From Saprospirales bacterium (GTDB lineage Bacteria; Bacteroidota; Bacteroidia; Chitinophagales; JADJOU01): a DNA stretch of 45,127 nucleotides. Position 1 is the stretch's first letter. Each line of letters opens with the position of its first letter. The position numbers were made by a program, and so were the translations under genes. The DNA lies in the NCBI GenBank assembly GCA_947441115.1, contig CANESS010000003.1:1-45127 (forward strand), given 5' to 3'. The notes under the pieces are model-generated. The model was not told the DNA's origin and did no database searches. It saw only the letters and a program-made list of their open reading frames with translations. This document shows, in pieces, positions 5,628-45,127 of the stretch.

Positions 5628-6203
5628 ATGAAAAAATTAAGTTCGTCAATTCTAATCTTCATTTTCGCAATTTATCTTTCTGCTCAAGATAGAGAGGTTA
5701 ATTCAATAAATGCCTTTAGAAACGAGTTAAATAGTTTAATAAGAGTAAACGAAGAACAACGAGAAACAGTCAGCAGGTTGAAATATGTCATTATAAAAAA
5801 AGAAGAGTCTTTAAAAGTAATATCCAAAGCTGAAAATAAGGGTGAAGAATTTCGAATTCTACTTGGTGTTCAAAGTAAGTCAATTCAAGCCATAGCTAGT
5901 CATAAAATGCTTATTGGTAGCATGGTTAATGAGAAAATAGTGCATAATATTGCCGGATTTCAAAATGCGAATGATGCATTTTTCTTATCACAAGAGTTGC
6001 GAAAACATAATTTAGCTATTTTTTTTGTTACGAGGTATATAAATGGTGTCAGAGATTATAGCTATATATTTGCCCCATATCAGACGCATACTAATTATAC
6101 TCCGCCACATCATAGCTACTATCCGTATGCAACAAAAACAAGACCTTCCAACGTATCTGATCGTGAGCCTGAATTAGTTGAACATAAAAAAATCCCACTG
6201 TAA
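5628..6203 (+). CDS. Secreted protein with SPOR-like region
   Basis: A 191-residue protein with a clear signal peptide (MKKLSSSILIFIFAIYLSAQ). Residues 23-65 look helical or coiled. The stretch from about 75 to 145 (FRILLGVQSKS, later NIAGFQNANDAFFLSQELRK and FFVTRYINGVRD) follows the pattern of SPOR domains, which bind denuded peptidoglycan glycans. In that pattern a strand is followed by a [GF]x.nA..l...L helix and a closing strand with NG.R. The tail (about 148-175) is rich in Tyr, His, Pro and Thr and probably disordered. It lies between the T9SS cargo gene and the Nudix gene on the same strand. The SPOR call is my pattern reading; otherwise it is a hypothetical periplasmic protein. Confidence 0.55.
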   Translation: MKKLSSSILIFIFAIYLSAQDREVNSINAFRNELNSLIRVNEEQRETVSRLKYVIIKKEESLKVISKAENKGEEFRILLGVQSKSIQAIASHKMLIGSMVNEKIVHNIAGFQNANDAFFLSQELRKHNLAIFFVTRYINGVRDYSYIFAPYQTHTNYTPPHHSYYPYATKTRPSNVSDREPELVEHKKIPL

Positions 6204-6245
6204 CAAATAGAAAAGTAATGATTATCAAAAATTAATTGAAAAGCT

Positions 6246-6884
6246 ATGTATACTATAAAATTTGGAGAGAATACACTGCGAATATTAAATGATATAGGTG
6301 CTTTTTCCTTTAAGAAAATAGGTAAAAACAAAGCTGTGGTTTATAATTATACTAAAGCTAAAAAACTAATAGATCTGATTAGAGAAGTCAAGTATTCCAC
6401 CGTAAAAAATCATATCATATTTCATAGTGATACTCAATTAGTTTTTAAAGAATTGGCTAAGAACTTTACCTGTATCAATGCAGGCGGAGGACTCGTCATT
6501 AATGAACAAAATCAAATACTTTTTATTTTTCGAAATGGCAAATGGGATTTACCTAAAGGCAAGATAGAAGCTAATGAAACCAATGAACTAGGAGCCGTGC
6601 GTGAAGTAGAGGAGGAGTGTGGAGTTAAGATTTCAAAACTAGAAGGAAAAATAGATGTTACTTATCACACTTATTTATTAGATAATAAACATATTCTAAA
6701 GTCTAATCATTGGTTTCTGATGCATGCAGATTCTAATCAGAAGCTTATACCTCAGGCCGAAGAGAATATAGAAAAAGTGGAGTGGAAGAAGAAAGAAGAA
6801 ATCGATAGTCTTTTAGAAAATAGCTATGATTCCATAAAAGAACTTATGGAACTTTATAAGAAAGATTTCAAGAAGGACTTATAG
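6246..6884 (+). CDS. Nudix hydrolase with N-terminal extension
   Basis: A 212-residue cytoplasmic protein. The Nudix box (GX5EX7REUXEEXGU) is complete at residues 105-127, reading GKIEANE...GAVREVEEECGV, with the metal-binding REVEEE core intact. WDLPKGK precedes it as in many Nudix enzymes. Such enzymes cleave nucleoside diphosphates linked to another moiety; the substrate cannot be told. About 75 residues precede the catalytic fold and are not recognisable. This layout is seen in other Bacteroidota Nudix proteins. The start ATG at 6246 is 42 bases after the previous stop. The last 6 bases overlap the convergent TPR gene. Confidence 0.88.
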   Translation: MYTIKFGENTLRILNDIGAFSFKKIGKNKAVVYNYTKAKKLIDLIREVKYSTVKNHIIFHSDTQLVFKELAKNFTCINAGGGLVINEQNQILFIFRNGKWDLPKGKIEANETNELGAVREVEEECGVKISKLEGKIDVTYHTYLLDNKHILKSNHWFLMHADSNQKLIPQAEENIEKVEWKKKEEIDSLLENSYDSIKELMELYKKDFKKDL

Positions 6885-43207: not shown

Positions 43208-44374
43208 CTAATGCATTCGTTTCGCAACTAGATTGAATACCCAGCGGGACATTTCACCATGTGCACTAGCATCATAATCCGATTTACTGCAAGGATAGAA
43301 TCTATCTACAACACTCTCATCTAGGGGTAATTCTACCCACCAGTGGTTGGAGAGCTTACTATTCCAAAAGTGAAAAGGTTTAGAGTTAAACTCGCTATGC
43401 TCTACCATATAAACTTGAAAATTATCATACTGGTCAGCTATTTCAGGGGACTCATCTGTTCTATAAGTGTATCCTTCTAGAAAATACCATAGGCTATGCG
43501 CTACCACCTGTGTAGTCAAATGTCTAATATCAAATTGGGGATTGACTTCGTAGATTCCTATAGACTTTACCTTAGAACTCATACCACAGAGTCGGGTTAT
43601 TTGACAGAGTTCATCTGATTGAAACCCATTTGGTGATTGCTGACTGCGCCCTGGAGCATCGCTTTGTTTTATGCAGGATACGTCAATACTCACCATATCG
43701 GCCATTTGAAATATATGAGCCCACTGCGGCACACTATATCTCACCTGACCTAATCTAATAGTCTCAAAAGACATAGAGTCTATGACATCCAATACATTGT
43801 AATTGGTAAAATAAGACTGGTATCCAAACATGGACAAATGAAATAACTGTGGCTGTTCACTAGCCAACAGATGTTGTAAAAAACCATCTGAAGTGATAGT
43901 TTCTTGAGATTTCAATAAATCTATTCGCTCATCTACCACTGTCACCGAAATATTATCCTCGAGACCCTCAAAGCCATTATACTGAGATACCGTTAAATCT
44001 TGACTACCTCCTAATACGATCACAGGTATATTATTTTTATAAATATAACTTAAAACCGCTTCTAACTTCTCATAGGTATCCAATACTTCCTCAGCATCAA
44101 GGATATTTCCTAGATCCAATATTTTTGGCATAGGATTGGGAATATTAAGTCGATAAAAATCTTTTCTAATTTCATCGGGAGCCATATCACAGCTCAGATT
44201 TTTAAAACCCGCCGCTCTGGCCTCTTTGACCCCAATGATAGCTATATCATAATTGGAAAAATCATAGATATCATCTTCTAGAAACTTCACATGATAGCCT
44301 ATTTCATACTGGTGATAATTCTTTTCATCACTGATATACGCCAAGTCTGGCATCTCTAAATATTGCGAAAGCAT
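43208..44374 (-). CDS. Arginase/formimidoylglutamase-fold protein lacking metal ligands
   Basis: The 388-residue product follows the ureohydrolase fold: DIAIIGVKEARAAG near 43, IPVIVLGGSQDLTVSQY (117-132), VTVVDERIDL (144-153), and MVSIDVSCIKQSDAPG (227-242). In active members these positions read GGGHD, DAHxD and SxDxDxxDP and bind two Mn ions. Here His is replaced by Gln125, the His of DAHxD by Arg150, and the last Asp of DxD by Ser233, so metal binding and hydrolysis look unlikely. I recall Bacteroidota relatives annotated as formimidoylglutamase with the same changes. The function is therefore unknown, and the enzyme name should not be transferred. Confidence 0.85.
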   Translation of the reverse strand: MLSQYLEMPDLAYISDEKNYHQYEIGYHVKFLEDDIYDFSNYDIAIIGVKEARAAGFKNLSCDMAPDEIRKDFYRLNIPNPMPKILDLGNILDAEEVLDTYEKLEAVLSYIYKNNIPVIVLGGSQDLTVSQYNGFEGLEDNISVTVVDERIDLLKSQETITSDGFLQHLLASEQPQLFHLSMFGYQSYFTNYNVLDVIDSMSFETIRLGQVRYSVPQWAHIFQMADMVSIDVSCIKQSDAPGRSQQSPNGFQSDELCQITRLCGMSSKVKSIGIYEVNPQFDIRHLTTQVVAHSLWYFLEGYTYRTDESPEIADQYDNFQVYMVEHSEFNSKPFHFWNSKLSNHWWVELPLDESVVDRFYPCSKSDYDASAHGEMSRWVFNLVAKRMH

Positions 44375-44466
44375 TCACAAAATTAAGGTATTATGGCCTA
44401 GAACCTAACGATTGATTCATAACATATTGGTAGAAATTGGATAGAAAATCAAACACTAGTAAAAAT

Positions 44467-44496
44467 AAATAAAGCTCCAAAGTTGGAGCTTTATTT
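44467..44496 (-). terminator. Terminator downstream of tRNA-Leu
   Basis: A perfect 14-bp inverted repeat (aaataaagctccaa / ttggagctttattt) lies 8 bases beyond the tRNA 3' end, with a T-rich tail on the minus strand. It would also work toward the plus strand. Confidence 0.8.
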
Positions 44497-44503
44497 AAAA
44501 AAG

Positions 44504-44587
44504 TACCCGCGACTGGAATCGAACCAGCACTTCCTTGCGAAAACCAGATTTTGAGTCTAGCGCGTCTACCAATTCCGCCACACGGGC
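44504..44587 (-). tRNA. tRNA-Leu (anticodon CAA)
   Basis: On the minus strand the acceptor GCCCGTG pairs with CGCGGGT. The D-arm reads GGCGGAATTGGTAGACGC. The anticodon stem CTAGA/TCTGG encloses the loop CTCAAAA, giving anticodon CAA, which reads UUG. A long class II variable arm (GGTTTTCGCAAGGAAGT) and a normal T-arm with GGTTCGATTCC follow. The 3' CCA is not encoded. All stems pair, so it should be functional. Confidence 0.95.
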
Positions 44588-44639
44588 AGGTACATTTAAT
44601 TTGGAGTGTAAATATATTATAATTCTTTATTTAAAACTC

Positions 44640-44870
44640 CAATTTCTTTCAATCAGTCTTTTCCTCTGGTCGATTTTAAATATTTCTCACGAATTCTAGC
44701 TTCTGACTAAGTATCGAAAGACTCTGTATGTATGATAGACCATGGCATATGTCTTTTTTATATCTATTGCCTCCTCAATTTTGTTCTTTTAATCTTATTT
44801 CAAGATCCTTAGACATTCCTACGTAGGTTCAACAACCTATAATGCTCAGTAAAACATAAACTATTATCAT
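44640..44870 (-). pseudogene. GIY-YIG nuclease-family gene remnant
   Basis: From ATG 44870-44868 the minus strand reads MIIVYVLLSIIGC, a stop, then TYVGMSKDLEIRLKEQN. After a further stop and frame change comes TESFDT, stop, SEARIREKYLKSTRGKD near 44650-44730. This is the small single-domain GIY-YIG family (YVYVLLS...YVGM..DLE.RL..HN, ...EAR.REKYLKS..G..WLK). At least three stops and a frameshift make it dead. It lies between the intact tRNA-Leu and a broken second copy. Free-standing GIY-YIG genes of this type are often found beside tRNAs in Bacteroidota. Confidence 0.75.
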
Positions 44871-44945
44871 CCTTGAAAACCAGATTTTGAGTCTAGTGCG
44901 TCTGCCCATATCTGACGACAGGCAGGAATTCCGCCACACGCTTGC
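44871..44945 (-). pseudogene. Degenerate second copy of tRNA-Leu
   Basis: Bases 44871-44903 and 44927-44940 match the intact tRNA-Leu almost exactly over the anticodon arm, D-arm and part of the acceptor. A 23-base insertion at 44904-44926 breaks the D-arm, two bases of the variable arm are lost, and the T-arm and 3' acceptor are absent. The anticodon stem-loop sequence is unchanged. It is not expected to make a tRNA. Confidence 0.82.
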
Positions 44946-45046
44946 AGATACTAAATTTAGATTTTAAATACAATAGATTTATTTATTAAGAAATCCTTTT
45001 TATTTCTTCCAAACCCTCCAATAAACTATTGACTAATGGTTATAAA

Positions 45047-45076
45047 AAAGTGGCTGTCAAAATTGACAGCCACTTT
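45047..45076 (-). terminator. Terminator of the last (partial) gene
   Basis: A perfect 14-bp inverted repeat (aaagtggctgtcaa / ttgacagccacttt) with a 2-base centre lies 21 bases beyond the stop of the minus-strand gene entering from the right. T-rich sequence follows on the minus strand. Confidence 0.82.
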
Positions 45077-45097
45077 GTGAATAAAATTATTTAATTA

Positions 45098-45127
45098 TTA
45101 CTTTATCACCTGCAGCTTACGCACAAT
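45098..45127 (-). CDS. C-terminal end of a probable T9SS-sorted protein (truncated by window edge)
   Basis: The last nine codons read IVRKLQVIK followed by TAA at 45098-45100 on the minus strand. A closing strand of the form K.V.K..V.K is typical for type IX sorting domains, and the strong terminator just beyond supports a true gene end. Nothing else of the gene is visible, so the assignment rests on a few residues. Confidence 0.5.
   Translation of the reverse strand: MVRKLQVIK

Follow-up and report, generated by a model that had tools for sequence, protein, structure and literature searches.

A decayed GIY-YIG gene between an intact and a broken tRNA-Leu copy: a probable minimal mobile element of bacterial chromosomes

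SegB of phages T4 and T6 is a free-standing GIY-YIG homing endonuclease (PMC13096335, PMC2988022), which is associated with tRNA genes in phages and drives the tandem amplification of tRNA-Tyr together with segB (PMC13096335). It is the closest known system to the locus described here, which lies in a 45,127-nucleotide stretch of DNA from a Saprospirales bacterium (contig CANESS010000003.1, positions 1 to 45,127; hereafter, the window). A literature search, largely of openly accessible papers, retrieved phage SegB and no chromosomal unit combining a GIY-YIG gene, a tRNA gene, and a palindrome. The analyses below indicate that the locus is probably a decayed minimal mobile element of the homing type, composed of a single-domain GIY-YIG gene, a short palindrome, and a partial tRNA gene, and able to spread itself; such an element is apparently undescribed so far.

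An earlier note on this DNA had described a GIY-YIG remnant lying between an intact and a broken tRNA-Leu copy of the same orientation, with its start codon adjoining the broken copy. ARAGORN, Rfam, BLAST, and PF01541 searches confirmed this arrangement (Table 1). The sole tRNA found in the window by ARAGORN is tRNA-Leu(CAA), in concordance with Rfam, and BLAST of this gene against its surroundings returned a second copy in the same orientation (E = 5.7e-11). The shared orientation is also evident from direct repeats, in which 44539-44590 pairs with 44875-44926 and 44571-44584 with 44927-44940. The second copy (44875-44940, minus strand) consists of two blocks that together cover the first ~45 nt of the tRNA; it terminates at ..CTGGTTTTC, the 3' half of the tRNA being missing. 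The earlier description of this copy as broken holds, with one correction: besides being truncated, the copy is interrupted, its blocks being separated by a 20-nt insert (CCTGCCTGTCGTCAGATATG on the minus strand) that had been overlooked. The insert is a degenerate form of the palindrome CCTGCCTGTCGGCAGACAGG, which occupies the equivalent place in a congener (G001). The ATG of the pseudogene (44868-44870) is no more than 5 nt past the end of the broken copy; PF01541 matches the pseudogene in two frames (44760-44867 and 44659-44802, E ~0.002-0.003 each), and its DNA is 77% identical to the live copy of G001. The promoter-like TATATTTACACTCC matches tatatttgcactcc, which precedes each tRNA copy in G001. 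The window gene is the sole CAA isoacceptor of tRNA-Leu detected in its genome (G000, 93% complete); since it was detected only once in a genome of this completeness, the intact copy is presumably essential. A group I intron with a GIY-YIG ORF was considered and rejected, because an Rfam scan of 44300-45127 gave no group I intron match at E values up to 1 and the functional tRNA is uninterrupted.

Table 1. Features of the window locus, and tandem arrays of the related unit in other genomes
Feature	Location	Strand	Basis
Intact tRNA-Leu(CAA), functional copy retained	44503..44587	-	ARAGORN; Rfam RF00005, 53.6 bits
Promoter-like TATATTTACACTCC 5' of the intact tRNA-Leu	44604..44620	-	Sequence and comparison with G001; promoter function inferred
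GIY-YIG pseudogene with frameshift and in-frame stops	44622..44870	-	PF01541, translations, DNA identity to the G001 copy
Broken tRNA-Leu copy, from the D-arm through the anticodon arm	44875..44906	-	Repeat pairing, BLAST
20-nt decayed palindrome within the D-loop of the broken copy	44907..44926	-	Repeats; counterpart CCTGC[C/T]TGTCGGCAGACAGG intact in L067/L261
Broken tRNA-Leu copy, 5' end to D-loop	44927..44940	-	14-nt exact repeat D2
Tandem arrays	G187, tRNA-Pro; G131, tRNA-Leu; G171, tRNA-Lys; G057, tRNA-Glu		

The orthologous site was compared in four congeners and in one species from another genus of the same family. The tRNA-Leu(CAA) loci of these relatives showed live tandem, remnant, or single-tRNA states and no ancient tandem array. 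In G001 the site is live: at least two tandem units, each consisting of the putative promoter, a tRNA-Leu 5' half, and an intact GIY-YIG ORF, end in the promoter and an intact tRNA-Leu. The array is distributed over two contigs, and each 5' half contains two opposed copies of the 20-nt palindrome CCTGC[C/T]TGTCGGCAGACAGG. In G002 the 3' end of the GIY-YIG gene persists as a remnant ahead of the intact tRNA-Leu. G003 has a single tRNA-Leu and neither a GIY-YIG gene nor a broken copy; compared with the window genome, its tRNA-Leu(CAA) segment (L258, G003:C29:17500-18700) is inverted with respect to the genes on either side. G004 and G005 carry a single tRNA-Leu(CAA) in a different context. Duplicates of tRNA-Leu were thus seen only alongside GIY-YIG, in G001 and the window genome. 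The window therefore carries the decayed counterpart of a unit that is still live in a congener.

Related loci occur elsewhere in the genus. The window genome also contains a tRNA-Asn with an intact GIY-YIG gene after it; beyond that gene lies a broken tRNA-Asn split by TCCCGCACGTGCGGGA. Small GIY-YIG genes in G001, G002, and G003 adjoin tRNA-Glu, Val, Lys, Met, Asn, and Leu. At loci with an upstream tRNA, the broken copy recurs beyond the GIY-YIG gene together with a duplicate of the tRNA's terminator. At a tRNA-Met locus of G002 (L117, G002:C21:50400-59200, 6000-6800), palindromes occupy the D-arm and the anticodon arm of several broken copies around one intact tRNA-Met and a GIY-YIG gene. 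At another locus of the same genome (L106, G002:C8:71500-75500, 1740-2307), six tandem tRNA-His 5' halves of ~81 nt, whose anticodon arm is partly replaced by TCCCGCAGGTGCGGGA, lie upstream of an intact tRNA-His, with no GIY-YIG gene nearby. Palindrome-bearing partial copies also adjoin tRNA-Val(TAC) and tRNA-Ala(GGC) in the window genome (L024 and L022); no GIY-YIG gene was found at either place, and these copies are probably older scars. G002 further contains a dispersed repeat of ~10 copies, TTCCGCATTAGAAAATGCAGAATCGATTAAGAATTTG ... TCCCGTACGTACGGGA ... AACTAAATCATATAGTTCGCCACG, with a palindrome at a fixed position (L102, L103, L107, L109, L110, L113, L118-L121), which is probably a separate MITE-like family.

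A profile of four tRNA-linked proteins was then used to search 84,980 species genomes, which yielded 79 loci: 65 in Bacteroidota and the remainder in Ignavibacteriota, Chlorobiota, candidate phyla, or unassigned records. Maribacter and Winogradskyella, genera with cultured marine isolates, are among the carriers of the element. A tRNA lies within 250 nt of the GIY-YIG gene in 68 of the 79 loci and within 412 nt in 75, on the same strand every time, and the remaining four are at contig edges. With a background of 0.036 tRNA/kb, the binomial P for this linkage is ~1e-92; the linkage rate is biased when taken alone, because the survey started from linked proteins. A linkage-independent sample (the best Pfam match per genome, in order- and phylum-wide draws) gave 20/58 tRNA-linked genes, all on the same strand. 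A partial copy of the same tRNA is present across the GIY-YIG gene in 71/75 loci, compared to 0/69 control stretches ~1.5 kb away; in a second set, largely of other isotypes, the tRNA is duplicated in 32/37. At most main-survey loci the broken copy is merely a 5' fragment that is incapable of forming a tRNA. It contains a clean insertion in 53 of the 75 loci, most often of 20 nt. Nineteen of these 53 insertions are exactly CCTGCCTGCCGGCAGGCAGG, found in Bacteroidota, Chlorobiota, and candidate-phylum MAGs, and 31 are strongly palindromic (0.6% of shuffles). Among the 59 loci with a downstream tRNA, 39 have the GIY-YIG stop codon within the tRNA, such that the ORF end overlaps the tRNA 5' end. 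A stop codon inside the tRNA would be removed by tRNA 5' maturation, and the overlap may thereby limit expression of the nuclease. The earlier note had proposed a scar, left when an endonuclease gene moved together with a tRNA gene, or into one, and partly duplicated it; the survey and the congeners support this proposal. Intact members of the family systematically lie between a complete and a broken copy of one tRNA, and the phenomenon reaches further than had been proposed, in that it affects many tRNA species and is confined to one GIY-YIG clade.

This clade was delimited in a tree of 167 GIY-YIG domains, in which a few loci were entered twice. All but one of the 116 checkable members of the linked clade, single-domain GIY-YIG proteins of ~80 aa, are tRNA-linked on the same strand, compared to 0/39 checkable members of the sister clade (40 unlinked rows). 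Linkage changes three times on the tree (30-40 in shuffles), and the branch dividing linked from unlinked proteins has moderate support (SH-aLRT 78). Just two rows labelled as unlinked fall on the linked side: L067 is actually linked, its array being split between contigs, which leaves L069 as the one real exception. Across the protein tree, the isotype of the tRNA switches 33 times (at least 48 in shuffles); the element has thus switched tRNA many times. The class of the palindrome follows the protein, with 5 changes over all loci (at least 18 in shuffles) and 3 outside the main survey (at least 6 in shuffles); for example, palindromes at tRNA-Asn are of the TCCCG or the CCTGCC type according to the protein, not the tRNA. 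Class palindromes were found near 83/114 linked genes, 7/40 unlinked genes, and 3/298 control windows, counts that are descriptive because the classes were defined after the data had been seen. In the unlinked sister clade (e.g., L043, L081, L084, L123, and L126), a strong palindrome lies within ~200 nt in 11/40 cases (~6% in control half-windows), and the partnership with palindromes may be older than the tRNA habit.

The proteins of the linked clade belong to the GIY-YIG superfamily (PF01541, 4.3e-18), of which the window copy itself is a pseudogene. They are ~77-84 aa long, and the GIY-YIG domain spans nearly the whole protein; domain searches, the alignment, and the predicted fold reveal no separate DNA-binding region beside it. 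Y5, Y16, G18, R26, H30, and E62 are invariant in A3, and the catalytic Tyr, Tyr, Arg, His, and Glu positions are kept. Structure prediction yields a putative GIY-YIG fold (pLDDT 93). The nearest solved structures by sequence are UPF0213 (1zg2, 3e-11), 1ywl, and Slx1, and the predicted model is nearest to 1zg2, 6sei, and 7cq2; I-TevI is farther from the clade protein than UPF0213 and Slx1. The nearest structural relatives act on branched DNA. In three congener pairs dN/dS is 0.12-0.26, which shows that the protein is under purifying selection. No close homologue was found among 50,697 phage records, 16 of which match, all below 60% identity, and the clade proteins have no plasmid match. Carriage by phages or plasmids was therefore rejected (0 plasmids, 16 weak phage records, 6 viral contigs).

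Palindromes were also examined independently of the GIY-YIG genes. Each genome of the genus has 8-50 TCCCG..CGGGA sites, compared to 1-12 sites of the reversed control. The exact 20-mer has 35 occurrences in 148 genomes, mostly distant from GIY-YIG genes; it is too rare (12/148 genomes) to serve as a genome-wide marker and was rejected as such. It occurs only in genomes with at least three GIY-YIG matches (12/92 vs. 0/56, Fisher P 0.0025, with the 92/56 split counted by hand). At one solo copy, comparison with a close relative shows a clean insertion of 20 nt. Insertions into tRNA copies fall exactly on cloverleaf arm boundaries in 41/53 cases (10 expected), many of them also being TA^G sites and some being of common ancestry, so that preferences for structure and for sequence are inseparable here. 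In G025, 8 of the 12 exact 20-mers are located within ~32 kb (G025:C2:1200428-1232703). The 20-mer at L231 and L243 is embedded in another repeat, of the GTCATTGCGAGG type, and a degenerate palindrome lies in a terminator-like loop near 1500-1560 of L242; loops of inverted repeats may be preferred targets. The palindromes are short and dispersed, as in REP/RAYT systems. A Y1 (HUH) transposase (PF01797) is absent from G000 and G003, both of which bear palindromes, and a RAYT as the sole mover was accordingly rejected.

We consider a self-spreading element the best explanation of the locus. In such an element, the nuclease would break DNA at or near a tRNA gene, and recombinational repair would bring in the nuclease gene with a duplicate of part of the tRNA gene, so that a complete tRNA and a broken copy end up flanking the nuclease gene. 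A palindrome of ~16-20 nt inserted in the broken copy would abolish tRNA function and would also leave a shorter stretch of homology by which the unit might be lost. Further rounds of the process would generate tandem units of broken tRNA and nuclease gene with one intact tRNA at the end. The element would resemble a free-standing homing endonuclease in its mode of action; membership in that group is not claimed, because the protein has no separate DNA-binding region and cleavage is something we infer. Some findings count against this explanation: the intact tRNA retains the sequence in which palindromes sit in the broken copies, some palindrome-bearing tRNA arrays lack a GIY-YIG gene (tRNA-His, G002), and similar palindromes occur far from any GIY-YIG gene. 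More tentatively, the protein and the palindrome may form a matched enzyme-and-site pair, an evolutionarily unrelated analogue of RAYT and REP, whereby a Slx1-like, structure-specific nuclease would move short palindromes able to form hairpins as well as its own gene and use tRNA genes as landing sites. It is possible, at the same low level of confidence, that tRNA genes are chosen for their hairpin-forming arms or for a TA^G-type site. Such a pairing is suggested by the palindrome class that follows the protein clade, by the occurrence of the same 20-mer in several phyla, by the arm-boundary insertions (which TA^G sites and ancestry may explain in part), and by the solo clean insertion. If such a nuclease acted on hairpins, tRNA arms and palindromes would have a common basis as its targets.

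Mobility is further suggested by filled and empty sites. In genus g22, the tRNA-Arg(TCT) site is filled in G025 and G203 and empty in G204, G205, and G206, where leader, promoter, and tRNA are uninterrupted. The insertion point is exactly between the leader and nucleotide 1 of tRNA-Arg. The filled allele contains an intact tRNA-Arg without a leader of its own; hence, the tRNA must be transcribed through the GIY-YIG gene. As expected of a SegB-like free-standing homing endonuclease, the GIY-YIG gene beside a conserved gene is present at some orthologous sites and absent from others, both here and at tRNA-Leu (G001, G002, and G000 vs. G003). Gain appears the more plausible direction, and the empty sites could be losses. 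Several genomes contain tandem repeats of a broken tRNA plus a GIY-YIG gene, with units of 317-377 nt and one intact tRNA beside each array (Table 1). Each array that was read out has a single intact tRNA, and every additional copy is broken; ARAGORN still calls a tRNA at several broken copies, which retain the cloverleaf but have their anticodon arm replaced. At the loci inspected, the DNA between tRNA copies contains just GIY-YIG genes and no site-specific recombinase. These arrays, together with the purifying selection on the protein and the precedent of SegB in phage T6, would also be expected of a domesticated amplifier that serves its host by varying tRNA dosage, is inherited mostly vertically, and leaves arrays as a by-product of selection on tRNA supply. 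However, the extra copies are all broken and do not raise dosage, the isotype has switched 33 times on the protein tree, and filled and empty sites alternate within one genus, so we regard a host-serving role as unlikely.

A slightly less probable account treats the neighbourhood of tRNA genes as a general hot spot for small genes and repeats, in which slippage produces tandem tRNA copies, copies that have died accumulate palindromes, and the GIY-YIG gene is one passenger. Palindrome-bearing tRNA arrays without GIY-YIG and palindromes dispersed elsewhere are compatible with it. Against it stand the lack of any tRNA linkage among sister-clade GIY-YIG genes of equal size (0/39), the shared strand in 75/75 loci, the agreement of palindrome class with the protein, and the absence of tRNA duplications from control stretches (0/69). 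It is very doubtful that the protein is a toxin acting on tRNA, with the palindrome-bearing broken copy as a decoy or antidote RNA. The one-to-one pairing of gene and tRNA kind and the cloverleaf kept by several broken copies would fit such a system, whereas the closest structural relatives act on branched DNA, the broken copy is mostly a 5' fragment unable to fold as a tRNA, and the duplication in G001 and the window takes in the promoter and thus arose on DNA. Finally, an unrelated GIY-YIG gene lying within an old tandem array of tRNA-Leu would account for the two copies in the window but is contradicted by G003, which like G004 and G005 has one tRNA-Leu(CAA), extra copies existing only with GIY-YIG, and can practically be dismissed.

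If the locus is indeed a decayed self-spreading unit, it belongs to one of the smallest protein-coding mobile elements, with units of ~317-377 nt, which would have spread through Bacteroidota and other phyla by parasitising essential tRNA genes in hosts that survive. The element would account for the broken tRNA copies and palindromes of its carrier genomes, would allow the origin of certain short palindromic repeats to be tested, and would extend to bacterial chromosomes the partnership of GIY-YIG and tRNA recently shown in phages. It would also call for caution in annotation, in that hairpin-bearing tRNA copies may be parts of an element and not tRNAs.

The element resembles SegB in that a GIY-YIG gene lies beside tRNA genes of many isotypes and forms tandem repeats of tRNA and nuclease gene. 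The repeats of SegB rely on microhomology of the tRNA 5' end with the segB 3' end; here, the ORF end overlaps the tRNA 5' end (39/59). Unlike SegB, it is chromosomal, bacterial, and a single domain of ~80 aa, and its extra tRNA copies are disabled by palindromes, whereas the tRNA amplified in T6 is full length. Known GIY-YIG homing enzymes have a separate DNA-binding region, which the clade protein lacks. UPF0213/YhbQ and Slx1 are nearest among solved structures by sequence and fold, but the UPF0213-like proteins sampled fall in the sister clade that is not linked to tRNA, and Slx1 has further domains and a partner. The likeness to REP/RAYT lies in dispersed short palindromes that track the clade of a small nuclease-like protein and in precise insertion; the enzyme here is GIY-YIG, whereas RAYT is a Y1 tyrosine transposase. 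As in integrative elements that target tRNAs, insertion occurs at a tRNA gene, a working tRNA is kept, and a partial gene remains as a repeat. In contrast to those elements, the unit holds only a GIY-YIG gene and no integrase, and in most loci it duplicates the 5' part of the tRNA, to which a palindrome is added.
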